This document shows, one piece after another, positions 6,316 to 60,212 of a stretch of DNA of 64,000 nt. Source of the stretch: Pseudoalteromonas tunicata (GTDB lineage Bacteria; Pseudomonadota; Gammaproteobacteria; Enterobacterales; Alteromonadaceae). Location of the stretch: NCBI RefSeq assembly GCF_002310815.1, contig NZ_CP011032.1, positions 3,264,001-3,328,000 of the forward strand, read 5' to 3'. A program made the position numbers and the translations under genes. The notes beneath the pieces are model-generated. The model ran no database searches, was not told where the DNA came from, and worked only from the letters and a program-made list of their open reading frames with translations. How positions within the stretch are numbered: position 1 is the stretch's first letter; each line of letters opens with the position of its first letter.

Positions 6316-8276
<1,961 letters not shown>

Positions 8277-14311: not shown

Positions 14312-15073
14312 CTATGGCGTAATTTTGGTTCCTACATGCTCACCTTTAAGCAATGCGTTGAGATTTTCTGGCTTTTGCCAACTAGAAATGTAAACGCCAC
14401 GTCGTAAATGTTGGGCAGCGAGTAAGCTTGTCTCTACCTTGACTTGCATCCCACCCAGAATTACTCCTGAATCAATTAACTGTGTTATTTGTCCACTATT
14501 TAGCTGATGTAGAGGCTGTTTATTTTGATCTAAAACCGCCTCAACATCGGTCATAAAAATCAACTCTGCATCTAAAGCTTGGGCAATTGCCGCAGCGGCT
14601 TCATCTGCATTAACGTTGTACCAATTGCCTTCAAGGTCAAAACCAATTGAACTTACAATAGGTAAAACATTTTTTTCTAATAAGATAGGAAGTAAATTAA
14701 AACTCCCCGTTTCGCATGAGCCAACTTGCCCTAATGCTTTTAATTTTTGTGTACTTGTTACACCGGCTTCAAACAAACTAATGCCAACTGGCGTTAAATT
14801 GACAGCCAAAGCCTGACCCATCAATTGCTTATTAGCACAACCTGCCAATGCGCCGACGATATAAGGCATTTGCTCACGCGGACTGATCCTAAGACCTAAA
14901 TGCTTAGCACTGGCAAAACCAGCTTGTTGCAGCCAAGTATCAACTAATGCACCACCACCATGAACAACAATAAATTGATCATCTGGATGCTCTGCAAAAA
15001 CGGCAAATAGTGCTTGCGCAGCATTATCACTATTGAGGACTGCACCACCGAGTTTAATAACCCACTTACTCAT
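14312..15073 (-). CDS. argB: Acetylglutamate kinase
   Basis: Phosphorylates N-acetylglutamate, the second step of the acetylated ornithine route. The 253 residues and the short N terminus (KLGGAVLNS at once) fit the E. coli-type dimeric enzyme without the extra helix of arginine-sensitive hexamers, so feedback inhibition is not expected at this step. VVHGGGALVD (about 37-46) is the substrate loop and the Asp/Lys residues of the amino-acid kinase fold are visible (MTDVEAVLD, GGMQVKVE). It overlaps the end of argC by 8 bases. Confidence 0.96.
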   Translation of the reverse strand: MSKWVIKLGGAVLNSDNAAQALFAVFAEHPDDQFIVVHGGGALVDTWLQQAGFASAKHLGLRISPREQMPYIVGALAGCANKQLMGQALAVNLTPVGISLFEAGVTSTQKLKALGQVGSCETGSFNLLPILLEKNVLPIVSSIGFDLEGNWYNVNADEAAAAIAQALDAELIFMTDVEAVLDQNKQPLHQLNSGQITQLIDSGVILGGMQVKVETSLLAAQHLRRGVYISSWQKPENLNALLKGEHVGTKITP

Positions 15074-44601: not shown

Positions 44602-46518
44602 CTAGAGTTTTGGTGGAATATACTTATAGATAGCCATTTTTTCTTGAACAGTTAATTCCTTTATCAGCAAATTACGAAGTATCGATTCATTTTCAGGATA
44701 ATTGCTTAAATTTGCCCCTAACCCCTTAATAAACAACTGATTTAATGTTGAGTTAGTTGATTTTTGCACTTGAGCTGCAATCCACTGATTCTTTTCTGAT
44801 GTTTCGGGCATTTGAAGCATTACTTTGACTGCATACTCTTGTAGTTCTAACTCATTGATTCTTTCATATTCTTCTACAAATAAATCTATCACTTGCTTGC
44901 CCTCCATATTGCTTAAGGCATCAAATGCGGCAGCTTTTACCTTACCGTTAGGATTATTAAACATCTCAGAGATAACAGGTATCAAATCCGTATTACCAGT
45001 ATTTGCGATTGCAGTTAACAAAGTAATCGCTTCTTGATCAGATGAAATCGACGGTAGGCTGTCTGCTAATATATCCGCAACTTTATACTTAACCATCTGA
45101 TTTAACTTGTCATTCCCTCCCATTGAACCTAAAGCAAACAATGCCATATTAGCCAATTCTTGATTTTCAATATCATCAAAAGCTGATAAGTTTTTTCGTA
45201 ATAAGGAGAGCTGGTCAATAAATACTTCGGTTGGGAATTCAATATCTTGAATGTAAGTTATGGCTCGATATTTTATTAATGAATTAAACCGTGGTTCCGA
45301 AGCTGCATAAATTAATGCTAGTTGAGCTTCTTGATGACCAGAAGTAGCTAGCGAATACCATAACCTTAAATCGACTTGCTGAGTTAATAAGGCTGACGCG
45401 TCAAAGATATAGTCGACCAAATTATTACTTTGTTCAGGGTGTAAACGAAGATAATTTATTAACATATCTAAGGCTAAATCTTCATTATCATGCAAAAGTT
45501 CTTCAAATAACTGAGTTACTTCCTTAAGATTTTTATTCAGCACTAACTGATTTAATTCAGGGTTAGTGATATAAAACTGCTCAATTCCCATTAACTCACG
45601 CTGTGGTTTTATTGTAGATAAAGAAGCACTACTAAAACTTATTCTTCTATTAATTTGAGTACAAATGAATACAGCGGTTGTTTCACTTAACTCTAAATTA
45701 TCTGATTTTGATAACAGACTTTCTTTCAAATTAATAGACTCAGCCCAAATCGCACCAGAAACTACACTATATTTTGTATCAGAATTAACCACTGCGACAT
45801 TTAGCGCTCCATCAGCAGATGAAAATAAACCGTCTTTAAGATTTAACTCTAGATACTGTACTTTCGTTTTTTGTATTTCACGCGTTTTTTGTGAACTATG
45901 GTTTGATTGAACTCGATAGCTATTTAATGAAACTCCTAAAGAATCAAGCTCTCTAGTTTGCCAATTTAACTCTTGCGACTTGCTAGCAAAAACATGAAAG
46001 TACGGTAATATCTGTCCAATCAGCGACTTGAGTTGTTCCGAATAAATTAACTCAGGTTTATTTAGAATCAGTAAGCCTTGCTCACCAATACTGACTAAAA
46101 AGGGCAGCATCATCCATTGACGTTCTTGCTCTGTTATTGTCGTATTAGTTACAAGATCATTTAGTTGAACTTGAAATAATGGTAAACCTTCGGACTCATC
46201 CAAATAAGAAAAATGAATTTCTCCTGAAAATGACGCTTCAAATAATTGCTTCTCAAATTGCTGACTGCGCGGCTGTTGCATCAATTTGTTAATTAAATAA
46301 CTTGAGTTTACCCAACCTGTATTAATCAAAGAAAAACGATAAGCAATATATTGTTCTGTACTAGTATCCCTGTCTAGATTTTGGTTAATAAACTCATTCG
46401 ACTCTTGAGTTTCTATTTTTCTATTTATCTTATAGTCATTAACCCCATCAAAAAGAATATAACCAACAATAAATAGCCCAATAACCACAAGACAAATAGT
46501 TAATTTTAGATGTTTCAT
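44602..46518 (-). CDS. Membrane-anchored HEAT-repeat-like protein, possibly related to the vitellogenin N module
   Basis: A 638-residue protein with one N-terminal membrane anchor (about 6-24) and the rest outside the cytoplasm. Residues about 55-330 look beta-rich; 330-638 are helical repeats of HEAT type (MALFALGSMGGNDKLNQMVK, KAAAFDALSNMEGKQVIDLF). Some stretches recall large lipid transfer proteins: a Pro-Phe-led strand with a hydrophobic helix (PFLVSIGEQGLLIL then LIGQILPYF) followed by ELDSLGVSLNSYRV, like the E-x-D-x-x-G segment of vitellogenin N. That is pattern memory, not a search. It lies 51 bases downstream of the giant protein gene, so the two probably form an operon and may interact. 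Confidence 0.6.
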   Translation of the reverse strand: MKHLKLTICLVVIGLFIVGYILFDGVNDYKINRKIETQESNEFINQNLDRDTSTEQYIAYRFSLINTGWVNSSYLINKLMQQPRSQQFEKQLFEASFSGEIHFSYLDESEGLPLFQVQLNDLVTNTTITEQERQWMMLPFLVSIGEQGLLILNKPELIYSEQLKSLIGQILPYFHVFASKSQELNWQTRELDSLGVSLNSYRVQSNHSSQKTREIQKTKVQYLELNLKDGLFSSADGALNVAVVNSDTKYSVVSGAIWAESINLKESLLSKSDNLELSETTAVFICTQINRRISFSSASLSTIKPQRELMGIEQFYITNPELNQLVLNKNLKEVTQLFEELLHDNEDLALDMLINYLRLHPEQSNNLVDYIFDASALLTQQVDLRLWYSLATSGHQEAQLALIYAASEPRFNSLIKYRAITYIQDIEFPTEVFIDQLSLLRKNLSAFDDIENQELANMALFALGSMGGNDKLNQMVKYKVADILADSLPSISSDQEAITLLTAIANTGNTDLIPVISEMFNNPNGKVKAAAFDALSNMEGKQVIDLFVEEYERINELELQEYAVKVMLQMPETSEKNQWIAAQVQKSTNSTLNQLFIKGLGANLSNYPENESILRNLLIKELTVQEKMAIYKYIPPKL

Positions 46519-46568: not shown

Positions 46569-49500
46569 TTAGTTAATAGTAAATACAGGTGATGTACGCT
46601 TACCTTTTCCACCCAACTCCCCAATAATATCAAGCGCCAGACACCCTTCAGGCAATCGGTATGTTTGATTAAATTTACCTTTCAACTTTTTGCTGAACTT
46701 ACCACCGCAACCTTGAAGTAAAATTTCATCTGCAGGAATCTTTATTTTTTTAGTATATTTTTTACCAAACAATTTCCATGTTTTAAGCTTTTCACCACCA
46801 CCATAAACTTCCCCCTTAGCGTTAACCAAGGCATATTTTCCTGCTGGTTTTTTAACAAATAATTTGCTTCTAAATTTTTGCTTTTTAATATTTGGCACTG
46901 TGTAGGATGTAAGTTGCCCCCATGTTTTCCCTTTTCTCCACAGGTTTTTGGTATCTCTTGTACCATCCCAACTCATGATTTTTTTCTCTTTTTTCTTCCA
47001 TTTAAAACCAATCCACTTAGGCTTTTTCCATTTAGCCCAAAGCGTGACTTTGCCGTCAAGATGTCGACGAGTAAAATCTAATCGAGCTGTGACATTAGCA
47101 TACTCACCATGTAACATTTGAAAATTAGCAGTAAATGGAGCATCTAGGCGCAATAAATTCAAATCAACTTTAGCGCCAGCTTTAGCCACCCAAGCATTAA
47201 CGCTTACACCACCAGAGGCATCAACTGATGCATAAGGACCGATTAAGCCACTTAATATATTGCCACGAGCGACAGAGACATTACCAACGATACCTACTTC
47301 ACCTTTTATGGCGCCTTTTAAGGTGAATTTAATCCCAAAATAATAGTAGTGTTTCTTTTTTTCTTTCTTTTTATACTTTACGTAACGCTCATCACCATCA
47401 TCATCCTTGGTTGACCAAAGTTCGTAAATATCCTCATTATAATGGTCGCGGACATATCTTTGGTCTTCCCAGACTACTTGACCTAATATTTTGACTCTAT
47501 TTTTCCAATAACTATTATAAGGATCTTCTTTTAAGTCTCCGTCAAATTTCGCATCTAAAAACTTAAAGCTTTTTCCAAAAATATATAACGTAACATCTCC
47601 ATCCGCATCAAACATTCCCTCATATGGAATTTTCAATCCGCCAATACGATAACGCGCCTTACCAGATAACTCATATTTCAATCCAAACTTAGATTTTTCA
47701 CCCGCTGTCTTTTCGTGTTTCAATTCTGATAAAGTAACCACCTCAGATGCTTGTTGACTACTCAAGTAAGGTGTATTTATGAAAAAGCTATTTTGATTAA
47801 CTTCTTGTTTAGTAAGTTCAAAAAACTCAGACTCTTCAGTATCGGCAGAAGCCGCATTACTATTTTCAACGCGCTGGTGAATATAAATTACCGGAAGCCT
47901 AACGATGTTATTAATAAAATTATTCTGCCACTCATTAATACTTTGAGAAGGATTAATCTTTACAACTATCTCACCAACTACATCACTACCAAATGCATAA
48001 AGGGCATAATAAGCGGCCTCACTTAAATGCAAATCGACATCTAGAGACACCTCTGTATCTTGCTCTAAAGATGCGCATCTTTGCTGGTTTTCATATTCTT
48101 CACAGCTTGGTTTAATTGTTCTTGTAACACCTTTAATCCAGTCTGCTACCTTACCGTTATCATCAATACTTGAAATTGAGTCGGACTCAGTAAAATCTCT
48201 ATCAACAATTTCTGTTGTTAAGTTTAATGGAAATAAACCAATATCTGGCATATCCAAATAAACTTCGATATCAACAGGTTCCGTTGTATCTTGAAACAAA
48301 GATTGAAGTGTTAAGTCAATATTAATTAAAGGCTCAGCATTGTTCAAAGGTGAACTATCATTTGGTCGCTCAGGCAATAAAAAACTAAAGCGACTTAATG
48401 TTGCTGATTGTATTTTAATGTCAGGTAATCCAGTTGAAACAATAGATACTTCTTTTAAAGGCAACAACAAAGCCTGCTGTTCTAATTGGGACTCATAAAT
48501 TGAATCTAAAGAGATAATAAGCTCATAATCACCTGAAATAGAACCCCCTTCGATTTCAAGAGTGTGTTCTATAACCTGTCGGCCCGAATTAATAGTATCA
48601 AGCACTTTTTTGCCTACAAATACTGCATTGGAATAGTCACCATTAGCAACTAATGCAAAATCAAGTACCACTCCTTTTAAAGGCTTTTCTGATTTTAATA
48701 TAAAATTTAATGGTACGCTTTGACCTGAAACTAATTCCTCCGAGAGACTCACTTGCTCAATTTGAACTGTCGAACCACTAAAGAGACCATTAATATCAGC
48801 GTGACTAAGTGTCGAAATAAACAATGCACTTATTAGAAAGCTAGATATTATCAACTGTTTTTGGCGTAAAAATACAACTAAGACGATTAAAGCTAAAATA
48901 TCAAACATAGTGCCACCACTTCGCTGTTTGGGTTCTTCAGGTTTGACTTCCCCGTCACCTGAACCATCACCTGAGCCATCACCTGAGCCATCACCTGAGC
49001 CATCTCCTGAACCATCACCTGAGCCATCACCTGAGCCATCACCTGAGCCATCACCTGAGCCATCACCTGAGCCATCTCCTGAATCGATAAGAATTGCGAT
49101 CATCCCTGGGTCGACGATTACGCCATTTTTCAGACCATCATCATCATTAGGCCCACCATCTTCAATAACCAATTTTAAACAGTCGTTCGCATCAACTAAG
49201 CCTTCTTGATAACTCGGGTCCACCATTGGAGGACAAACCCCAGCAACAGAAACGGCAGAAAACAGCGCATTCTGATTATCAATAGTAAACTCACTCCATA
49301 CTCCATCTTGTTTATATTTAAGATAATTAGACTCAGGTACAATTGGTTTATTCAAAGGAATAACAACTGCAACCGAAGTTTGGTTATTAGGTATGTTTAA
49401 AATTTCAAAGTCATAAACATCGCTGATCTGATTATATTTTTCTGAGTCTATTGCCAATCCATTTAGTACAATTGATGAACTTTGCTTGCTGCTAGCAAGT

Positions 49501-52500
49501 TTTCCTACCTTCATTAGAAGTCCATCTTCTGTAAATGAGAAAGAGGCAGTTGCAGCGCTATTTAATAATGGCATCATGATTTGGTTTTCAGCTAAAAAAG
49601 CATCATCAAGATAGTCAGGTATTAAATCTCCATCACTATCTTTTAACCCCTCATCACCGTCAGATATGCCATCTCCATCACTATCTTTTGCAGGATCGGT
49701 GATTTCTCTTACTTGCTCACTCACAACAAAGCTAATAAACGCTGAACTACTCAATACAACAGGCGCATTATCACTAACACTCGCTATTATTTGATAAGTA
49801 CCTGCATCAAGCTCACTCGGATCAAATCTAAAATTAAGTGCTCCTTGAGAAGGTTGAGCGATATCCCCCTCTAATTCCCAACTCAAGATTAATTCATCTT
49901 TTATATTAGGATCTGCAATCGATGCAGTAACAGAAACCTCTCCGTTAGTTTGTGATATCCACGATGTCTCTTGACCATTTTGTCTAATACTCAATTGAAC
50001 AGATGGAGCTAAATTTGCTTCAGAAATCGTTAATTCAAAATTATCGCCTGTAATATTAGCAAGCTGAGATTCATCGCTTCCAACAGGTGCAAGATTAATG
50101 AAAAGAGACTCATTCCCCTCAACAAGTTGATCCGCTAAAGTATTAAACTTAATTTCCGCTGTAGTTTCATCTTGACCAAAAGTAACGATACCAGCTAAAA
50201 GATCATGATCTTCAGTCGAGGCGCTCCCTGAAATAGTATAACCGACAGATAACGGATAAACTGGTGAGAACCCATTTAGCTTGAGCTTAATCACAACTTC
50301 GTTTGCTTCACCCACTTGCATACTTTTACTTTCAAAAGTCACAATTGGCTTTACATTAACATATTGAATAGTTTGAGCTTTATTATTCTGAGCATCGCTA
50401 ACTTGAAGTTCGATTTGATGTTTTCCAGGGCGCAGTAAAAGCACATTCCGAGGAATTTCTACCACACCATCTTTTGCATCAATAGCATAATCTTGCTCAA
50501 AAACCTCTTCATTAATTCCGGTTAAGTAATCATTAGCATTTATCCAAACTTGTTGGCGAATCACAAACTCAGGTGCAACCGAATCTATTGCAGGATTAGT
50601 ACCATTTAGGTATTCATCAAGATTAGAAATACCATCTGAGTCAAAATCAGTATCACCATCAAATGGATTGGTATGATCAAGGTCATAGCGCACCTCGTAA
50701 TCATCAGGTAAACCATCACCATCGCTATCAATAAACTCAAATTTATTATAAATATCGGTACCACTTATCAACTCACTGCGATCTGAAACACCATCGTTAT
50801 CAGAATCAACAAAGTCAAACGCATCATAAGGGTTGGTACCTACTCTTAATTCCTCTGGATCGGAAACGCCATCGCCATCGTTATCGCTGTATTCCTTGGC
50901 ATCATTAGGATCATTAGCTTTTAAGATCTCATTATAATCAGGATCACCATCGCCATCAGTATCGAGGTAATCATTGATATTATTAGGATCTGTTCCATCA
51001 ATCAGTTCTTGACTATCTGGTACGGAGTCGCCATCACTATCTTTATCTGAGCTATCATTCGGATTTGTACCATTGAGTCTTTCCATGAAATCAGAAACCC
51101 CATCAAGATCGGAGTCTTTAAAAGATTTAGGGTCAGAGCTATCTGTACCATCGATTTTTTCGACATAATTTGGCACACCATCTTTATCCGTATCTAAGTA
51201 ATCTCGCTCTAAACCGGGTTCAGTCCCATCTAAGTCCTCAACGTAGTCAGGAACAAGATCACCATCCGTATCTAAATAAATAGAAGCATTGTTAATATCA
51301 GTATTATCAAGTAATTCCATAGCATCTGACACTTGGTCGCCATCAGAATCTTTAAAACTTCTAGGATCATTTGGATTGGTACCATCAAGTAATTCAGCTT
51401 TATCAAAGACACCATCCCTATCAGAGTCAAAATCGACACTTGTAGCATCAAATGGGTCAGTTCCAGCTAACTTTTCACCATAATCAGAAACACTATCACC
51501 ATCGCTATCAAGAAAATCATCTTCATTATTTGGGTCTGTGCCTGCGATCATCTCTTGAGTATCAGGGACTCCGTCACCATCGGCGTCAGGGTATGAACTA
51601 GCTCGATTTATATCGGTATTAAAGCGTCTTTCAACCGCATCAGCTGCACCATCACCATCAGTATCTAAAAAGCTCAACGAGTTAAATGGATCTGTTTGCT
51701 CTAAATTCTCAACATAGTCAGGTACACCATCAGAATCAGAATCAATAAAGTTATTCTTATCCTCAGTATCTGTTTCTAGTAGTATTTCTTGATAATCAGG
51801 TACGCCATCTTGATCACTATCTAAATATGAAAGTTTATCGTTTGGATTTGTACCTTGCGTCACTTCTAACTGATCAGAAACACCATCTTTGTCTGCATCA
51901 GGGAAACTAGCGCCATCAAGAGGGTCGGTCCCTGCTGCTATTTCATCTTCTTTGGTCACACCATCATTATCGAGATCATCGCCGTACGACAAATCAAATT
52001 GAATTAATAACTCTACATTGTCTATTTCATCTGAAATTACTAATTTTATAACATATGATTCTACTTTTAATTTTTTTACAATCTCGTCTCTGGTAATAAT
52101 TTCATTAATTGAAATTAAGCCATTTTCAGAGATATTAAATAATTGCCCATCAAACCCCTCTGCTATCTGGTAGCTCAATACAGTATCTTTATCTTTATCT
52201 ATTGCATCTATCTGTAACAATTCTTTTTGTTCGAAAACAAAGTGGCTCACTATTCGATCATTACCTTCAGATAGAATAGGTGACAACACCTCAGGCTTAT
52301 CATTAACACCAATGATGTTAAAGCTCATCTGTTGCTCTAAAATAACGCCAGTCTCTTTTTCAGAATTAGTGACTTCTAAAACAAATTTTTCAACAAGCTT
52401 TTCGTCACGATGTAATGGATTAATTAAATCTTTTACTGGTTCGACACTCTCGCCATCATCTGATTCAGGAAGTTCTGAATATAAAATATGGTTATACTGA

Positions 52501-54425
52501 TAAAACCAATTACCATCTTTAAATACCAGCTTACCGTATAAACCTTGATATTCTTTTTCAACGACTTTGACGTCATCTTTTTCAATGTCTGATACATTAA
52601 TTAAGAGGTCTTTTACAGCATATTGTCGACCGTTTAATTCATCTTCAGAGAAGTCTGCGAGTAACAATTCACCTGCGCTCATTGGTAAATCATCAATAGG
52701 TTTAATGTCTATTTGAACATTACCCGAAACAGAATGCTCAACATCTGAAACTAAAAAACTAAAGGAGTCTTTGCCATAGAAATTGGCATTAGGCAAAAAA
52801 ACAAGTGATTGTGCTTGAGCCAAAGTAAGCAAGCTTGACGCTGTAACGACTTCATCGCCCACAGATAAAAGACCATTACTTGGTAACGAAAATACCTTAA
52901 ATATTAAAATATCTTTGCTATCTCTATCTGTCGCAAAAAGAGGCACAGACACAGCGCTATCTTCATCTGTATTAATAACTATATTTGATGTTTCAGGTTT
53001 ATGTTTTATGTCTAATACAACAATATTGAACGGTCGTGAATCAGTTGAGTATTCATAATCACTGGCAGTCACTACAATATTTTCATAGACACCTATTTGA
53101 GCTTCTTCAGCTTTACCAAACACTTGACCACTTTTACTATCAATCGATAACCAGCTTGGGGCATTTACCAAACTAAAAGTGATTGAATCGCCATCAGGAT
53201 CATAAGCACTTGCTGTCGCACTAAAGGTTTCACCTTCTTTAATTTCTATACTATCAATTTGTCGATAATGATAAGGTGCATAATTCACATCACGCACATT
53301 AATGGTAAAGGGCGCTAAAACACCACTACCACCATGGGCATCATTTACTGTAATGGTAATATTTTGATATACGCCATTTTGTGCAACCCCAGAAAGTTTT
53401 CCGGTTACAGTATCAAAGGTGGCCCAATGCGGTTTGTTTGTAATTGAAAAACTAACAGTATCATTTAAATCGATATCACTTGCGACAGGTATAAATTGAT
53501 AGAATGATTGTTCATCAATCATGGTTTGTGCTGAGCCCGAAATAGTAGGGTTATCATTAATTGATGTTGTGATTACTGCTATTGATAAGGCATTACTGTC
53601 TAAATGACCGTCATTTGCTTGCACAGAAAACGTGGTTGTTACCGCATCATCAACGTTAACTTGATCTTTTATCGGGTTAAAAATCAAATTCCGTAATTTA
53701 GTTTGAGTATCTGAAACTGAAAAACCTGCTAGTGTATAAGTCCCCGCAGCGCCTGATAGTCCAGTACCAGACAAACTGCCATTCATGCCTTGATAATTGA
53801 GGGCGATTGTCAAAGCATTATTATCAGAATCAGTAAGAGTTACATTACTAAATGGTTTGAGGTTTTCATTATCATTAATAGCTATTGAAGTTGTTGTGGT
53901 TGAAATAAGTGGTGCTGAATTTGGATTAGCAAGCGTAATACTTGGTACCGGGCTTACCCCATCAATCTCGTTTCCACCTCCATCCGCTGTTATTACCCAC
54001 CTAAAATTATATTTACCTGCAGAAGATCCATTAGTAACACCGCGCATTGTTAGCACAACATCAGATCCTGCTGGAACAGCCTCACTAATTCTTATAAGTC
54101 TATAATTTGAATTTGAGCCATTAGAAGTAAAATCGCATGTTTTCTCAATCCCATCAATAACGACGGTTACAAATTCGCAACCAGTGGGAAATATAAAAGT
54201 ACTCTCATAAATAGCTACATATAAAATATACTGGCTATCTGTGACCTCAGTCACTGTAGTATATTCAAAAGTATAAGTCGTTTCAGCTCCTGGGGTGTAA
54301 TCGCCGGCTGTAAAACTAAAATTTTGCAATTGTGCAGCTTGTAATTGCTTTGCAAAAATAAGAATCAAAAACACACATGAAACGTAACATGCTTGCCTTA
54401 TTTTTTGATAGATTGCACTAGGCAT
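46569..54425 (-). CDS. Giant surface-type protein: cadherin-like, TSP3, Calx-beta, internal sorting and signal segments
   Basis: 2618 residues. A signal peptide (cleavage near 30) leads to: an N-terminal beta domain (31-160) with a Cys pair; a cadherin-like region (170-290); two He_PIG-type cadherin-like domains (about 290-380 and 380-475); a tandem-95-like domain (475-580); further beta domains to 810; 18 thrombospondin type 3 repeats of about 26 residues (about 813-1280, DxDxDGxxD Ca-binding loops); a Calx-beta domain (about 1360-1455); another TSP3 pair; and GDGS x10. SGGT (about 1836-1839) plus a hydrophobic stretch and RQK is a GlyGly-CTERM-like signal, directly followed by a second signal-like segment (1858-1876, ending SHA). 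A Lys/Trp-rich, beta-rich 742-residue domain finishes it. Probably an adhesin or Ca-dependent surface factor. Confidence 0.75.
48951..49079 (-). repeat. 12-bp tandem repeat encoding GDGS
   Basis: 129 bases, about 10.75 units of a 12-bp repeat reading GDGS ten times plus GDG in the giant protein. Units are almost identical (TCACCTGAGCCA on the plus strand, a few with TCT or GAA), so length variation by slippage is likely. It forms a flexible spacer just before the sorting-like signal. Confidence 0.95.
50590..51985 (-). repeat. Array of 18 thrombospondin type 3 repeats (about 78 bp each)
   Basis: Degenerate DNA repeat coding for units of the form DSDGDGVPDxxExxxGTDPNxxxxF. The units differ in sequence but keep the Asp positions, so they are under protein-level selection and are old. 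Confidence 0.9.
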
Positions 54426-54615: not shown

Positions 54616-55323
54616 CTAACTCGTTATAAGTAAAAATCCCTCCCCCCTAACGGTTACTATGACCTTTCCTAGTTCACTTATATTTAACATTTTTTTTCTC
54701 AGGCGAACGACTAACATATCGAGTGAGCGACCTTCAGCGTGCTCAGAGTTACCAAGTAACTGCTGTAACTTAGCTTTACTTACTACTTTGCCTTGATATG
54801 CAATTAAATGAATGAGTAACTGCTGCTCAAGTTTAGATAATAAGACAGACTCACTTCCTTTTGAAAGCTGCATAGTCTCCATATCAAGTAACATATCCAA
54901 AACACTAATAGAGCGATTCCCATATTCAACAGGCTTAATGCGGCGCATCAATGCCTGGCTTCTTAAGTAAAGCTCTTCAGGATTTATGGGTTTAGTAACA
55001 AAATCATCTGTCCCACAGTGGAAAGCTTTAATTCTATTTTGTTCAGAGCCATACATCGAAATCATAATTTTACCTATTGATGAGTTATCTTTTAGTTGAT
55101 TCATTAGCTCATAACCTGAAATATCAGATAAGGAAATATCACAGATAATTAAATCAACTGGGCCAAATTTATGGTTCTTACTATTTTGAATAAACTCAAT
55201 CACTGTACTACCTCGAATAAAAGCACTTACTTGATAGTTTTTTTGCTCAAAATTGATCGCTAAAACACGATTCAGTAGAGGGTCATCCTCAACAATTACA
55301 ACATGGTGACGTTTAATTATCAT
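54616..55323 (-). CDS. OmpR-family response regulator
   Basis: 235 residues: receiver domain (1-125) with acidic pair Asp13/Asp14, phospho-acceptor Asp62 (LIICDISLSD), Ser of MISMYGSE and Lys111 in FVTKPINPEEL; then a winged-helix DNA-binding domain (about 140-235, EQQLLIHLIAYQGKVVSKAKLQQLL and RSLDMLVVRLRKKM). It is immediately downstream of, and overlaps by 4 bases, the hybrid kinase gene, so the two form a cognate pair. The giant-protein gene begins 190 bases downstream on the same strand and is the obvious target, by position only. Confidence 0.93.
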   Translation of the reverse strand: MIIKRHHVVIVEDDPLLNRVLAINFEQKNYQVSAFIRGSTVIEFIQNSKNHKFGPVDLIICDISLSDISGYELMNQLKDNSSIGKIMISMYGSEQNRIKAFHCGTDDFVTKPINPEELYLRSQALMRRIKPVEYGNRSISVLDMLLDMETMQLSKGSESVLLSKLEQQLLIHLIAYQGKVVSKAKLQQLLGNSEHAEGRSLDMLVVRLRKKMLNISELGKVIVTVRGEGFLLITS

Positions 55324-57437
55324 TGTAGATCCACCAAACCTATTGTTTCTAATTGCACAATTGACTCATTAAACATTACTGTCAGTTGTATAATTTGTTG
55401 TTCATTTATTACCTCATGATAAAGTTCTAGATCTAATGCAGTTTTAGATACAGCTGTTAAGCCGAATTGAGCTGTTTTATTCGCGATTTTATGCAGTGAT
55501 ATTTGCTTTAACAAATGCTCGGTGTCGGTAACATTAGAGATACCCTCAATTAGTGCAAGCACTTCAATCTTTAGCAGTGAAACTTCAACGATAATTTCAG
55601 AAACAGACAAAACCTGTCTCAAGTAGCGAAAAACCTCTTTATTAAACAGCTCTTGCGAGTTATTACCCTGAAATTTATAGTTTAAATTAACTAAGCTATT
55701 AAGTGTATTTCTGAGCATATCAATATCAACTGGTTTTGCTAAAACATGCTGCAAGCCTATCTCTTGATATCTTAAACGGGACTGATAGTCGACTCTAGCT
55801 GTAAGAGCTATCACTTGGCTGGTAAGCTTGAGCGATTTAAAATATTCAAATAAACGCTCTCCATTAATATCAGGTAAATTCATATCCAAAAAAATGAAAT
55901 CAAAACTTTGTTTTTCAATCTCATGCATCGCTTTTTCCCCACTTTCAGCAATCGTTACTAAGTGGTTATCGATCTCAAGAAGACCTTTGGTTACTTTTTG
56001 ATTTAGTGGAATGTCCTCAATTAACAAGATCCTTAAAGATGGTATAGCATTGATACTTTGCGATTTTTTTTCCACTACAGGCTGTTCAATATAAGGAAAA
56101 TTAAAACTAAATGAACTGCCTTTCCCTTCTTTACTAGAGATTTTTAGGGTACTTCCAACTTGAGTTAGCATATCTTGGGATAAGGCTAATCCTAAACCCG
56201 CTCCGTCCTGCCATCCGTGGTTTGAAGCCCATGTAAAAGGTTGTATTAGGTTATTTATTTCACCTTTAGGGATACCAATTCCAGAATCTAATATTTCAAA
56301 AAACAAATTAGTTTCAGAAATACTAACCGACAACCTAATGAAACCATGCTCGGTATATTTAATTGAATTATCGAGTAAATTAACCAAAATATGTCGTAAA
56401 AACAGCGTATCTGTCGACACCGTAAAATCCTTGCTCAAGGTATAATTAAGCTCAACGGTTAAACAAAGTGCTTTTTCTTTGCTTTTGACTAAATTCAATA
56501 ACTGCATCAACCAAGGTAATAAAGCGATCGTTTCACTCTCTCTGTGTGAATGATGTTCAACTTGAGCTGATTGCAATACATAGGAAGAAAACTCCCCTAA
56601 ATGAATCCCTGTTTGAATGATAGTTTCACAATCCTTTTTATCCTCATCACTGTACATCCTTGAATGCATCAACCGAGCTAGACCTACAATACCGTTTAAT
56701 GGCGTTCGAATTTCATGACTAAATGCGGCAAGAAATTTTGATTTTTGATCAAGCTCTTGCTCAGCTTTGAGTTTTAACCTATTTAATTCAAACTCTTTTC
56801 TATCATTACATAAGAAGCTAAAGCTAAGTACTAAGCCATAAGGCACAAGGAAACCAGCGAGAGATGTAACAATATTAAGAGTATTCGGCGCTAAAAAATT
56901 TTCAACGCCACTGCCGATAGTGCACAAATAAATCCTAAAAAACATCAATACAATGATGTAAATACTCACTGAAATATAAACGGCTCGACTGATTTTAGAT
57001 AAGATTAAGTTACTTTTCCTAAGTGCTACCAGAACAATTAACTGACTCATTAACCACATAGCACTTACGAGGATAATACGAGCATTAACATTGTTATCAA
57101 TAAAAACGAAGTAGCTAAACAGAGGCGTAAATAAAATAAAATAAGAACAATACATCCAACCTCTTTTTATTGGCACGTCAAAAAAAGATAAACTGCCAAT
57201 CAGAGATAAAACAAAAGCCAATAATAAAAAATGATTTGCTAGGATGATGCTATAAAAAAAATGAACTTCAGTTTGTAAAGATAATAAGAACAGGGCAATA
57301 GCGAAACTAAAAATACTTAAAGTCCATTCCGACACACCAGAAATAAACCTATTCACTCGCCAAACAGGTATAAAATAAAGAGCGCTAATAAACGCTGTAA
57401 ATGAAGCAATAAAGGTTAATGATTTAGGATCTAACAC
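55320..57437 (-). CDS. Hybrid histidine kinase with receiver and Hpt domain
   Basis: 705 residues. Residues 1-210 hold about seven membrane helices, with no large periplasmic sensor. HisKA has His241 in FSHEIRTPLNG; the ATPase domain has the N box LVNLLDNSIKYTEHG (about 351), DSGIGIP (384) and DGAGLGLALS (411). A receiver domain follows with Asp518 in FIFLDMNLPDING and Lys568. The C-terminal part resembles an Hpt domain with LHKIANKTAQFGL (His649), so a His-Asp-His-Asp relay as in TorS or ArcB is expected, ending on the OmpR-type partner. The overlap with the regulator gene is 4 bases. Confidence 0.92.
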   Translation of the reverse strand: MLDPKSLTFIASFTAFISALYFIPVWRVNRFISGVSEWTLSIFSFAIALFLLSLQTEVHFFYSIILANHFLLLAFVLSLIGSLSFFDVPIKRGWMYCSYFILFTPLFSYFVFIDNNVNARIILVSAMWLMSQLIVLVALRKSNLILSKISRAVYISVSIYIIVLMFFRIYLCTIGSGVENFLAPNTLNIVTSLAGFLVPYGLVLSFSFLCNDRKEFELNRLKLKAEQELDQKSKFLAAFSHEIRTPLNGIVGLARLMHSRMYSDEDKKDCETIIQTGIHLGEFSSYVLQSAQVEHHSHRESETIALLPWLMQLLNLVKSKEKALCLTVELNYTLSKDFTVSTDTLFLRHILVNLLDNSIKYTEHGFIRLSVSISETNLFFEILDSGIGIPKGEINNLIQPFTWASNHGWQDGAGLGLALSQDMLTQVGSTLKISSKEGKGSSFSFNFPYIEQPVVEKKSQSINAIPSLRILLIEDIPLNQKVTKGLLEIDNHLVTIAESGEKAMHEIEKQSFDFIFLDMNLPDINGERLFEYFKSLKLTSQVIALTARVDYQSRLRYQEIGLQHVLAKPVDIDMLRNTLNSLVNLNYKFQGNNSQELFNKEVFRYLRQVLSVSEIIVEVSLLKIEVLALIEGISNVTDTEHLLKQISLHKIANKTAQFGLTAVSKTALDLELYHEVINEQQIIQLTVMFNESIVQLETIGLVDLQ

Positions 57438-57508
57438 AGTGACTTTATAAATATTTACTTAAATATCATTATCATTGAAAAAGCTTCAACAATATACATT
57501 TTTACCAT

Positions 57509-58342
57509 TTAATGTAAAAAATCATCTGTAGCTAACAATGGTTCTGAAACATTAATGTTTTCTAGCTCAAATGTATTGCGCGTATCCAATTTTAATTTAT
57601 TAAGATATTGCGCAAAATAACGCGTGAAAATGGCATCAAATTCGCCATTGTTCAACATGGTCGTTAAACCAGTTTGCAGTGCAGCTGACAGTTCGACTTT
57701 TTCTTTATTGACAAAGAAATAAAATGCCGTTGGATATTTGAGTAATAAATGAGGCTCAATCATTAGCGGTAAGTCTTTACGCGCCGCAAGCTCTGAATGC
57801 ACCTCAATCACTGAACGCGGAAAATAATCACCTCGCCCAAGCGCTAACAACTTAAACATTTGTTCATAATTTGCCTGTGCTAAAACGGTGTAGCCATTTT
57901 GAGTCAGTATTTTAGTATCTGGCCAATCATGTCCTTGCAGGGCTTTTAGTGATTTGAGTTGTGATGCATCGTTAATTGCTGCAAATTGAGCGCCGTACTC
58001 TTGATTAATTAATAATACTCGCCAGCCAATTAAACCTTTAAATAAGGGGACTTTGATTGCCGTGGCAAGCTGCTCACGGGCTGTGCTAGTCATGCCCCAA
58101 TGGATATCAACCTCACCTTGGCTTAGCATTAATAAGGTACGTTGTTGATGCGGGTGCACTGCGACAAAATTCAGTTCTGCTGAATAATTGGCAGCTTTAA
58201 GGGCCTGCTCTAATACTTCGATCAGGTAAATATCTCGTTGATAAAGAATGCGTTGCTCTTGAGCGACGTTAACCACATTAGCCGCTACGGGTATTGTGAT
58301 GCTCATCAACCCTAGCACCGCCATCGCAATTAATAATTTCAT
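57509..58342 (-). CDS. Periplasmic solute-binding protein (SBP_bac_3-like)
   Basis: Start chosen at the ATG at 58342 (MKLLIAMAVLGLMSITIP), which opens a clear signal peptide cleaved near AAN and has AGGTG 11 bases upstream. A longer frame starting at 58435 would overlap the previous gene and hide the signal. The mature 277-residue protein has the amino-acid-binding-type fold (YLIEVLEQALKAANYSAEL, GEVDIHWGMTS, KILTQNGYTVLAQ). No permease or ATPase gene is nearby; its neighbour is the EAL/GGDEF gene, so it may act as a sensor input rather than a transporter part. That is inference. Confidence 0.8.
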   Translation of the reverse strand: MKLLIAMAVLGLMSITIPVAANVVNVAQEQRILYQRDIYLIEVLEQALKAANYSAELNFVAVHPHQQRTLLMLSQGEVDIHWGMTSTAREQLATAIKVPLFKGLIGWRVLLINQEYGAQFAAINDASQLKSLKALQGHDWPDTKILTQNGYTVLAQANYEQMFKLLALGRGDYFPRSVIEVHSELAARKDLPLMIEPHLLLKYPTAFYFFVNKEKVELSAALQTGLTTMLNNGEFDAIFTRYFAQYLNKLKLDTRNTFELENINVSEPLLATDDFLH

Positions 58343-58421
58343 TTTTATTGAACACCTTACGCTAGCCTCAATGAAAACTAACGGGTTACGGTACAAAGGT
58401 AAAGCAATAAATGGTGTTAGT

Positions 58422-60212
58422 TTAATCGGCTCCACTGGCTAAGCGCATTCGAACAATGGGAGTCGCTGGTTTTCGCCGATGACATAGAAATAGGTAACTT
58501 TGTCGATAGCGTTTTGCTTCTTTTTTAGCATCCGTGGCAAGCGCTGAAACTTGATGACTATTTTCACAAAAAGCTAAATCAGGATTCACCAAACCAATAG
58601 ACAAGGTCAGTAATGGCACAAATTGTTCCTGCCCTTCACGATTTGGCGCCCAGTAACCGCCAGCTGCAATATGCTCAGGGGTAAAAAAACTTTGTGAGCG
58701 TCGTTCAAACTCTTTGATGATTAGCTGACAGGTATGCCAAGCATCTGTACCATCAAAAATCACCATAAAATCATCGCCGCCAATATGCCCCACAAAGCTA
58801 TTTGCAGGATCACAACTATCACTAATTACATCCGCAAGTAACTTAATCACTGCATCACCACTGGCATACCCATATAGGTCATTAAACTGCTTAAAATGAT
58901 TCAAGTCGACATAAGCTAAAAAGAAATTTTGCTGCCTTCTTAACCGCAGTTCAATTGCTTCAGTGATGGCCACATTACCGGGTAACATAGTCAAAGGATT
59001 GGCGTGTTGTGCATGGCGTACTTTTTGGTCTGTGATATGTTTTAATATTTTACGCAGTGGTACCACGCCCAAATAAGTTTGATGTTCAGTCACTAAAATA
59101 TGGCGACGAATATCAAAATCAAAATCGGTAATTTGTTGACTTACCATATCAAGTGTATCAAGTTTATCGACAATCAAAGGTTGTGTATCCATCACTCGTG
59201 TAACACTTTTTTTATCATACAAAGCATGACCATAAGGTGCTGCAAAAAGCTCTGCAAGCTGGTCACGATGTAACATGCCAACCGGTTGCTGCTGCTCATT
59301 TAGCACAGCTAAACTAATTAAACCTTTATTTTTCTCAAAACAAGTTTGCGCTGCGGCGCAGTGAGTTGATGCAAAAATAGCTTGCTGAGTTTCAACCAAT
59401 AAACCTATGGTTTGATCATCTAGTTCGGGGGAATTTTGCTGCTTAAGCGCTTGCTTTGCGAGTAAATCGCTAGAAAACAGTCTTGATGGCTCTATGCTTG
59501 GCCTTTCAAGTAAAAAGCCTTGCGCTAAACTCACGCCCAACCCTGTCAGTAAATCTAATTCTTCTTGATGCTCAATGCCTTCGGCAATCACTTGGGTATT
59601 TGTTGCTTTGGCTAAATCGATGATAGATTTTAAAAACTCTTTTTTTACAATACTTTGGTGGCAATGATCAATAAAGTATTTATCAATTTTAATAATATCA
59701 GGTTGTAGTTCTGACCATTTTCTTAAGCCAGAATGCCCTGCACCTAAATCATCTATCGCGATAGAAAATCCAAGCTCGCGGTAATAGGCCAACGTTTGCT
59801 GTAATAGCTGATGATTAGGCACTTCATCTTGCTCTGTCACTTCAATAACCACCTGCGCGGCACTTAAACCATGCTGTTCAAGCAAGTGCTGAGTTTCACC
59901 TTTAGGATGCTTAGGATCGAGTAAAGTTCTTGGGCTTACATTCAAAAATAACTTTCCACTTAACCCAAGCAATGCAAAATTTTCTATCGCTTTTTTCCGG
60001 CAAAGCAATTCAAGTTCAGACACTTTACCTTGCTGCTCTGCCGCTAAAAAGAGTTGGTTAGGAAACTCAAGCGGATGCCCTTTTGGCCCGCGCGATAAGG
60101 CTTCATACCCTAAAATACAGCTATTTGCTAAATCAAAAATAGGCTGGAATACAGTGCTAATATTTTGCTCTGTTAATAGTTGCACTAACAAATGAGCGCC
60201 ATTTAATTTCAC
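58422..60212 (-). CDS. EAL-CBS-GGDEF protein, cyclic-di-GMP turnover
   Basis: 596 residues, cytoplasmic. The EAL domain comes first (about 1-245): EAL at 37-39, NVSP, EVTEQ, DDLGAGHSG, KIDKYF, AEGIE and QGFLLERP are all kept, so phosphodiesterase activity is likely. A CBS-pair region covers about 260-395. The GGDEF domain (about 405-590) has VDLNHFKQFND and the signature GGDDF (478-482), with Asp for the usual Glu at the fourth position, so cyclase activity is uncertain. It is directly upstream of the solute-binding gene (about 80 bases between start and stop). Confidence 0.9.
   Translation of the reverse strand: MKLNGAHLLVQLLTEQNISTVFQPIFDLANSCILGYEALSRGPKGHPLEFPNQLFLAAEQQGKVSELELLCRKKAIENFALLGLSGKLFLNVSPRTLLDPKHPKGETQHLLEQHGLSAAQVVIEVTEQDEVPNHQLLQQTLAYYRELGFSIAIDDLGAGHSGLRKWSELQPDIIKIDKYFIDHCHQSIVKKEFLKSIIDLAKATNTQVIAEGIEHQEELDLLTGLGVSLAQGFLLERPSIEPSRLFSSDLLAKQALKQQNSPELDDQTIGLLVETQQAIFASTHCAAAQTCFEKNKGLISLAVLNEQQQPVGMLHRDQLAELFAAPYGHALYDKKSVTRVMDTQPLIVDKLDTLDMVSQQITDFDFDIRRHILVTEHQTYLGVVPLRKILKHITDQKVRHAQHANPLTMLPGNVAITEAIELRLRRQQNFFLAYVDLNHFKQFNDLYGYASGDAVIKLLADVISDSCDPANSFVGHIGGDDFMVIFDGTDAWHTCQLIIKEFERRSQSFFTPEHIAAGGYWAPNREGQEQFVPLLTLSIGLVNPDLAFCENSHQVSALATDAKKEAKRYRQSYLFLCHRRKPATPIVRMRLASGAD

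Follow-up and report, generated by a model that had tools for sequence, protein, structure and literature searches.

In a 64,000-nucleotide stretch of Pseudoalteromonas tunicata DNA (NZ_CP011032.1, positions 3,264,001 to 3,328,000; hereafter the window), one gene encodes a giant protein in which two exported proteins follow each other in a single reading frame. The two halves, here called the N-part and the C-part, meet at a joint made of a GlyGly-CTERM-like stretch and an internal signal peptide. Judging from the sequences of the joint and of its relatives, this one chain is probably a polyprotein that rhombosortase and signal peptidase I would cut into two secreted proteins.

The joint spans residues 1836–1880 and consists of SGGT, a hydrophobic stretch, RQK and 23 further residues. 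SGGT (residues 1836–1839; 48920–48909) opens it, followed by 14 hydrophobic-stretch residues (1840–1853) with Asp1842 at the third place, RQK (1854–1856), Gln1857 and a TTG-coded Leu1858 (48854–48852). The internal signal peptide covers residues 1858–1876 and ends in SHA, with DING (1877–1880) after it. An earlier description made from the letters alone (hereafter the sequence-only reading) had this order and these motifs right and gave the hydrophobic stretch 13 residues where there are 14, the Asp included. It was also correct that the frame is open throughout: all 2618 codons lie in one frame, and both other frames are interrupted by stops across the joint segment. What was observed at the joint is real, and the expected products of about 1840 and 740 residues agree with a mature C-part of 742.

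Both segments have the forms that reading assigned to them. Residues 1836–1857 show the tripartite GlyGly-CTERM form of Gly/Ser motif, hydrophobic stretch and basic residues, which is kept in both of two orthologues. GlyGly-CTERM signals are described at the extreme C-terminus of proteins that have a signal peptide and no other transmembrane segment, and predictions for 219 representatives placed no transmembrane helix between the signal peptide and the tail (available text of PMC3237569). In the window protein, residue 1856 is succeeded by 762 more, with another hydrophobic stretch directly behind it; because it is not terminal, we place the window stretch as an internal variant and not as a standard GlyGly-CTERM member. 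The second segment has the form of a signal peptidase I substrate, with a basic n-region (RQKQ), 16 residues containing the hydrophobic core, and SHA before D, giving a small residue at −3 and Ala at −1. A lipobox Cys is absent from the end of the internal signal peptide in the window (SHA) and in both orthologues (VAA and SAA).

Orthologues preserve this architecture in largely different letters. A search among long proteins only, with the last 839 residues as query, returned P0001 from P. citrea (3061 residues, 44% identity) and P0002 from P. xiamenensis (2865 residues, 42% identity), each a single predicted protein. Their joints run SGGSMFFVMVMMLLLALKRRM...AVAA before NE and SGGSMFWLLVFMMAVVMLRRLGKK...SAA before EL. 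At the same place as in the window, both have SGGSMF, a hydrophobic stretch, RR, a second hydrophobic stretch and an AxA-type end. Homologues that always lacked the SGG motif or the AxA-type site would have spoken against the sequence-only reading; both features are kept.

Relatives of the N-part exist in two states, ending at the tail or continuing through it. Searching 108 genomes of the genus with the segment that precedes the joint, we obtained relatives from 88 and read the 3' ends of the 110 matches scoring at least about 197 bits. In 39 of them the gene stops after a GlyGly-CTERM-like tail, while in 71, counting the window gene and its orthologue in genome G131, the frame continues past the tail to a signal peptide and then a second protein. 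Those two set aside, 69 of 108 relatives show the joint, and in these 69 the second protein is an OmpA-like barrel, carried in a further 177–184 residues and ending in Phe in 68; the window and G131 genes have the window-type C-part. Five of six fused barrel domains scanned, and the one split domain scanned, pass the OMP_b-brl or OmpA_membrane cut-off. No barrel was found by tblastn (E 1e-3) in the examined DNA beside the 39 terminal-tail genes.

The barrel type also occurs in P. tunicata itself and beyond the genus. On another replicon of the same genome lies a second fused gene (L138/L149; L149 5765–11473, minus strand, 1902 residues) with cadherin-like repeats, a GG-type joint and an OmpA-like barrel (OmpA_membrane 36.3 bits, cut-off 21). 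The frame is open through the joint in all 37 named Pseudoalteromonas loci, most of which coincide with genes among the 110 read. A Shewanella-type query matched 155 proteins, and each of the 120 listed has the joint and a terminal Phe, with an exact AxA in 93 and another small or aliphatic residue at −3 in 27; because this search could find long proteins only, the 120 show that the joint is kept and not how frequent fusion is.

Both signals look kept as protein, judging from the column pattern of 69 aligned barrel-type joints together with low ratios of nonsynonymous to synonymous polymorphism (pN/pS). Ser in column 1 and Gly in column 3 are invariant, and the basic cluster is kept. At the putative signal peptidase site, position −1 is Ala in 66 joints, −2 is free, and −3 is Ala in 52, Val in 11, Thr in 4, Gln in 1 and Ile in 1; the mature part begins mostly with a polar residue and has a Trp soon after in 68. 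An exact AxA occurs in 55 of the 69 against 33.8 expected by shuffling, which is a weak statistic alone, and the column pattern carries the weight. Across 76 related, non-independent pairs, pN/pS is 0.13 in the GG stretch, 0.17 in the loop and signal peptide and 0.13 in the barrel. From this conservation we infer that the chain would be cut at both places. Midway along the internal signal peptide a Cys (column 39) is kept in 60 of the 69 joints, and the residues preceding it form no lipobox.

The same two proteins can also be encoded separately. A profile of 24 fused joints with their barrels, searched against 394 genomes of the order, matched 152 genomes, many through the barrel part alone. 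The 30 loci listed among these matches comprise 26 with one frame through the joint (two of them repeat genes already counted), three overlapping gene pairs and one barrel gene without a partner. In the three pairs the genes overlap by 4–7 bases in different frames, and the barrel has its own ATG. The giant gene at L174 ends ...SSGGALNFWALGVLLAGLWRRQSKNNKQGVKTK and a stop, with an ATGA overlap with the barrel ATG, and in this locus (L223, 11–15539) the split pair is tandemly duplicated, with 4-base overlaps at 6556–6559 and 14946–14949. At L183 the ending is ...NSGGGALTWLLLIAFSLFIYRGVTNMLKGIRQ and a stop, also with an ATGA overlap (L222, 2449–2452), and at L176 it is ...GSLSWLFLGLLLLSVYRQRNATC and a stop, with a 7-base overlap. 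On a tree of 53 barrels the four non-fused rows (three split, one solo) need four changes, of which at least two are forced by well-supported branches; this implies more than one joining or splitting event. Shuffled labels need 3.9 changes on average, so the non-fused rows are not clustered beyond chance.

Such overlaps raise the question of whether the open frame means anything at all. A single change can open overlapping genes, and a functionless joint could come from a recent stop-codon loss or a sequencing or assembly error. The fused state is nevertheless found in three species at 42–44% identity, in 71 of 110 relatives and in all 37 named Pseudoalteromonas loci, and pN/pS over the joint is low; these comparisons reject stop loss or error for the family and make it a highly implausible explanation.

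A related concern is whether the second protein is made also, or mainly, from a new start inside the frame. In the window loop there is no ATG, and the TTG at 48854, which is at the right place, has no GGAG, AGGA or GAGG just upstream, as the sequence-only reading had noticed. A Met is present in the loop of both orthologues, and an extra internal product is therefore possible for the window-type gene. Within the 15 codons scanned, an ATG is present in 11 of 71 joints (L067 left out), whereas ATG, GTG and TTG are all missing from 16 of 71; start positions also shift. Any start with GGAG, AGGA or GAGG upstream occurs in three of 71, and an ATG with one in none. The barrel ATGs of the split loci, by contrast, do have upstream words: GGGAG (L174), AAGGAA (L176) and AAAGGGAA (L183, judged by eye as a ribosome-site word outside the word list used). 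On these counts of start codons and Shine-Dalgarno-like words, internal initiation is unlikely as a general route, and we regard it as an improbable main source of the second protein.

The C-part has its own separate relatives. Its profile weakly matches 26 other genomes of the genus at 27 loci, the second locus of G131 included (18–31 bits); these are stand-alone frames of 618–674 residues, and all 14 of the 27 that were extracted start with a lipobox-like L-S/T-G-C. Compared with these lipoproteins, the C-part gives an HHalign probability of 88.4 (E 2.8e-6, 438 columns). The lipoprotein gene is directly followed by a gene with HEAT-like repeats in five of five neighbourhoods read, so the two look like a conserved two-gene unit. 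The fused genes of the window and G131 are likewise followed by a relative of this HEAT-like gene (profile comparison: probability 95.7, E 8.8e-9), and homology and shared neighbour together identify the C-part as a remote relative of the lipoprotein in that pair. G131 has both fused and stand-alone versions (L144 and L147). On the simplest account, a copy of the lipoprotein gene would have fused to the 3' end of a gene for a giant GlyGly-CTERM protein, with loss of the lipobox but retention of an export signal.

With separate relatives on each side of the joint, fusion of two exported-protein genes is well supported: N-part relatives that end at the tail, remote C-part relatives with their own lipoprotein signal and the three split loci all point to it. 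Homologous genes on either side were what the sequence-only reading had proposed to look for. It had treated fusion and polyprotein as alternatives, which they are not; both fit, and its interpretation is supported.

The genome also contains the machinery for both proposed cuts. Rhombosortase, whose gene that reading had likewise proposed to seek, is encoded at C1:1933910–1934359 (167.1 bits, cut-off 84) with GLSG and His motifs, and is present in 107 of the 108 genomes of the genus. Signal peptidase I has three matches over cut-off, and the type II secretin GspD a full match at 527 bits. A secretin-like frame elsewhere (G000:C1:3462100–3463329, minus strand) has a TAA inside its GspD-profile match. 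Across the order, rhombosortase is found in 29 of 31 genomes picked as fused versus 234 of 394 overall (Fisher p 1.3e-5), a comparison in which the fused genomes were chosen after the fact and kinship was not controlled. The 31 are genomes that, among the matches listed, had a profile start of 1–3 or a frame shown to be fused, and 26 of their 31 joints were read. Seven genomes with weaker matches that were left out (G214, G242, G302, G312, G361, G370 and G436; profile start 2–3, frames of 833–2689 residues) all have rhombosortase.

These components suggest how the polyprotein might be processed, with the tail chemistry taken from VesB of Vibrio cholerae (PMC6219818 and PMC11389362, in their available parts). 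Fusion would have kept the end signal of the first protein and the start signal of the second. The chain would enter the Sec translocon through its N-terminal signal peptide, the GlyGly-CTERM-like helix would lodge in the inner membrane, its basic end facing the cytoplasm, and the internal signal peptide would restart export, so that the joint becomes a short hairpin of two helices and each half lies on the periplasmic side. Signal peptidase I would then release the C-part by cutting after SHA, and rhombosortase, perhaps as the later step, would release the giant calcium-binding N-part by cutting at the glycines. The N-part would probably receive a lipid-type group and travel to the cell surface through the type II secretion system. 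Two surface or envelope partners would in this way come in equal amounts from a single messenger. For the barrel type, a signal peptidase cut seems close to necessary, because a barrel of the outer membrane would not be expected to remain attached to the inner one; we extend the mechanism to the window protein because it shares the joint.

Alternatively, the joint may stay uncut or be cut only once, so that the hairpin anchors both halves on the periplasmic side of the inner membrane or, in the barrel type, bridges both membranes. Two hydrophobic stretches around a short basic loop permit this geometry, and in genome G210 the joint occurs although no rhombosortase match was found. A plain hairpin, however, requires neither the invariant Ser/Gly motif nor the Ala at −1, the barrel, at 180 residues, presumably has to get to the outer membrane, and in split relatives the second protein is produced independently. 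Together these points leave an uncut or half-cut joint unlikely.

Several results weigh against processing of the polyprotein at both sites. The GlyGly-CTERM profile TIGR03501 (cut-off 15.5 bits) does not match the window's own stretch, and a whole-genome search with it (E 0.001) returned two places, the very ends of genes, and neither the window joint nor the second fused copy. The profile does score the orthologues (20.3 and 18.4 bits), two barrel-type joints (19.1 and 17.8) and that second copy (16.1). Because the true terminal tail L036 is likewise unmatched and some stretches tested also score with other tail profiles, the test is weak both ways. The hydrophobic stretch of the window has an Asp near its start and no Pro, which is rare across the 69 barrel-type stretches as well; rhombosortase cleavage of VesB requires a helix-breaking Pro, and GlpG is also able to cut VesB (available text of PMC11389362). 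Three other rhomboid matches in the P. tunicata genome fall below the rhombosortase cut-off. G210 (99% complete) and G272 (80%) have the fused form and no rhombosortase match at E 1e-20. The link of the C-part to lipoproteins is remote, and the HHalign alignment begins after the signal region. In P0003, the third match of the orthologue search (25% identity), a C-part-like domain sits within a different giant protein that lacks such a joint. Finally, the AlphaFold models are poor: immunoglobulin-like domains appear at the C-part start (model residues 7–301), and the remainder of the C-part is modelled poorly.

The features of the gene and its downstream neighbour are collected below. By family scan the N-part also carries immunoglobulin/cadherin-like domains and a Calx-beta domain, and a DGS-rich linker leads into the joint. 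This linker is encoded by an array of DGS-type three-codon repeats directly before the joint (about 48940–49080, minus strand); it is much shorter in both orthologues, so its length is likely variable. Upstream, at 54616–60212 (minus strand), lie genes for a response regulator, a hybrid histidine kinase, a weak solute-binding match and an EAL/GGDEF protein, so that a signalling cluster adjoins the surface protein gene.

Coordinates of the fused gene, its parts and the following gene, as positions in the window. The limits of the TSP3 run were set by eye.
Feature	Coordinates	Strand	Evidence
Whole fused gene, 2618 residues	46569..54425	(-)	Single open frame with ATG start; 2618 codons
N-terminal signal peptide, 31 residues, predicted	54333..54425	(-)	Sequence form
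TSP3-type calcium-binding repeat run, about residues 819–1282	50580..51971	(-)	PF18884 58.5 bits, cut-off 25
Choice-of-anchor U domain, partial, residues 1743–1778	49092..49199	(-)	NF041766 29.5–31.8 bits, just below cut-off 32
GlyGly-CTERM-like stretch, 22 residues; proposed rhombosortase site at the glycines	48855..48920	(-)	Form; TIGR03501 scores of orthologues
Internal signal peptide, 19 residues; proposed signal peptidase I cut after SHA	48798..48854	(-)	Form; barrel-type column pattern
C-part, 742 residues mature; remote relative of stand-alone exported lipoproteins	46569..48797	(-)	HHalign
Downstream gene with HEAT-like repeats	44602..46518	(-)	HEAT_2 26.1 bits, just below cut-off 27.7

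Parts of this arrangement are familiar from known systems. With GlyGly-CTERM/rhombosortase (TIGR03501/TIGR03902; VesB, RssP) the window protein shares the SGG motif, hydrophobic stretch and basic end on an exported giant protein, and the genome has rhombosortase and type II secretion genes; unlike there, the signal is internal and a second exported protein follows. The separate OmpA-like barrel genes that overlap GlyGly-CTERM genes (L174/L223, L183/L222 and L176) encode the same products in the same order with the same kind of tail and signal peptide, but as two overlapping genes with their own stop and their own ATG. In Bradyrhizobium, the cytochrome b-c1 gene fbcH encodes two envelope proteins in one gene, as a precursor with an internal signal sequence and a signal peptidase cut between them. 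It is not known to involve a C-terminal sorting signal or a rhomboid protease, whereas the window products would be freed by two proteases.

Similar use may be made of other sorting signals, such as LPXTG, the Gram-positive-type signal. The fourth match of the orthologue search, P0004, is an unrelated metagenome protein with no family over cut-off in two family scans. At about residues 165–235 it has PKTGD, a hydrophobic stretch and RK, then in frame a signal-peptide-like stretch ending ALQAMA before DEV. Different as the protein is, the pattern hints at a possible Gram-positive parallel.

A title and abstract search, which mostly does not reach subscription papers, found no announcement of an internal GlyGly-CTERM or of such a polyprotein. 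Within their available text, PMC3237569 does not mention internal, fusion or polyprotein, PMC13393428 does not mention internal or polyprotein, and PMC6219818 and PMC11389362 do not mention polyprotein.

GlyGly-CTERM-type signals have been described as the last element of a protein; here one lies inside the frame in 71 of 110 relatives, with an apparently working start signal after it. We lean towards a broader reading in which this is a widespread, repeatedly evolved polyprotein of marine gammaproteobacteria, whose 40-residue joint would be cut out by the two proteases to give equal numbers of a lipid-tagged giant and an envelope partner, either an OmpA-like barrel or the window-type C-part, that perhaps receives or holds it. 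Should the cuts be real, well over a hundred database "giant proteins", under names such as "outer membrane adhesin like protein" and "tandem-95 repeat protein", would each be two proteins, and the barrel would not be the anchor that its position in the chain suggests. Whether rhombosortase depends on a free cytoplasmic tail could be tested directly at this joint, and the natural fused and split pairs allow testing why cells join the two proteins.

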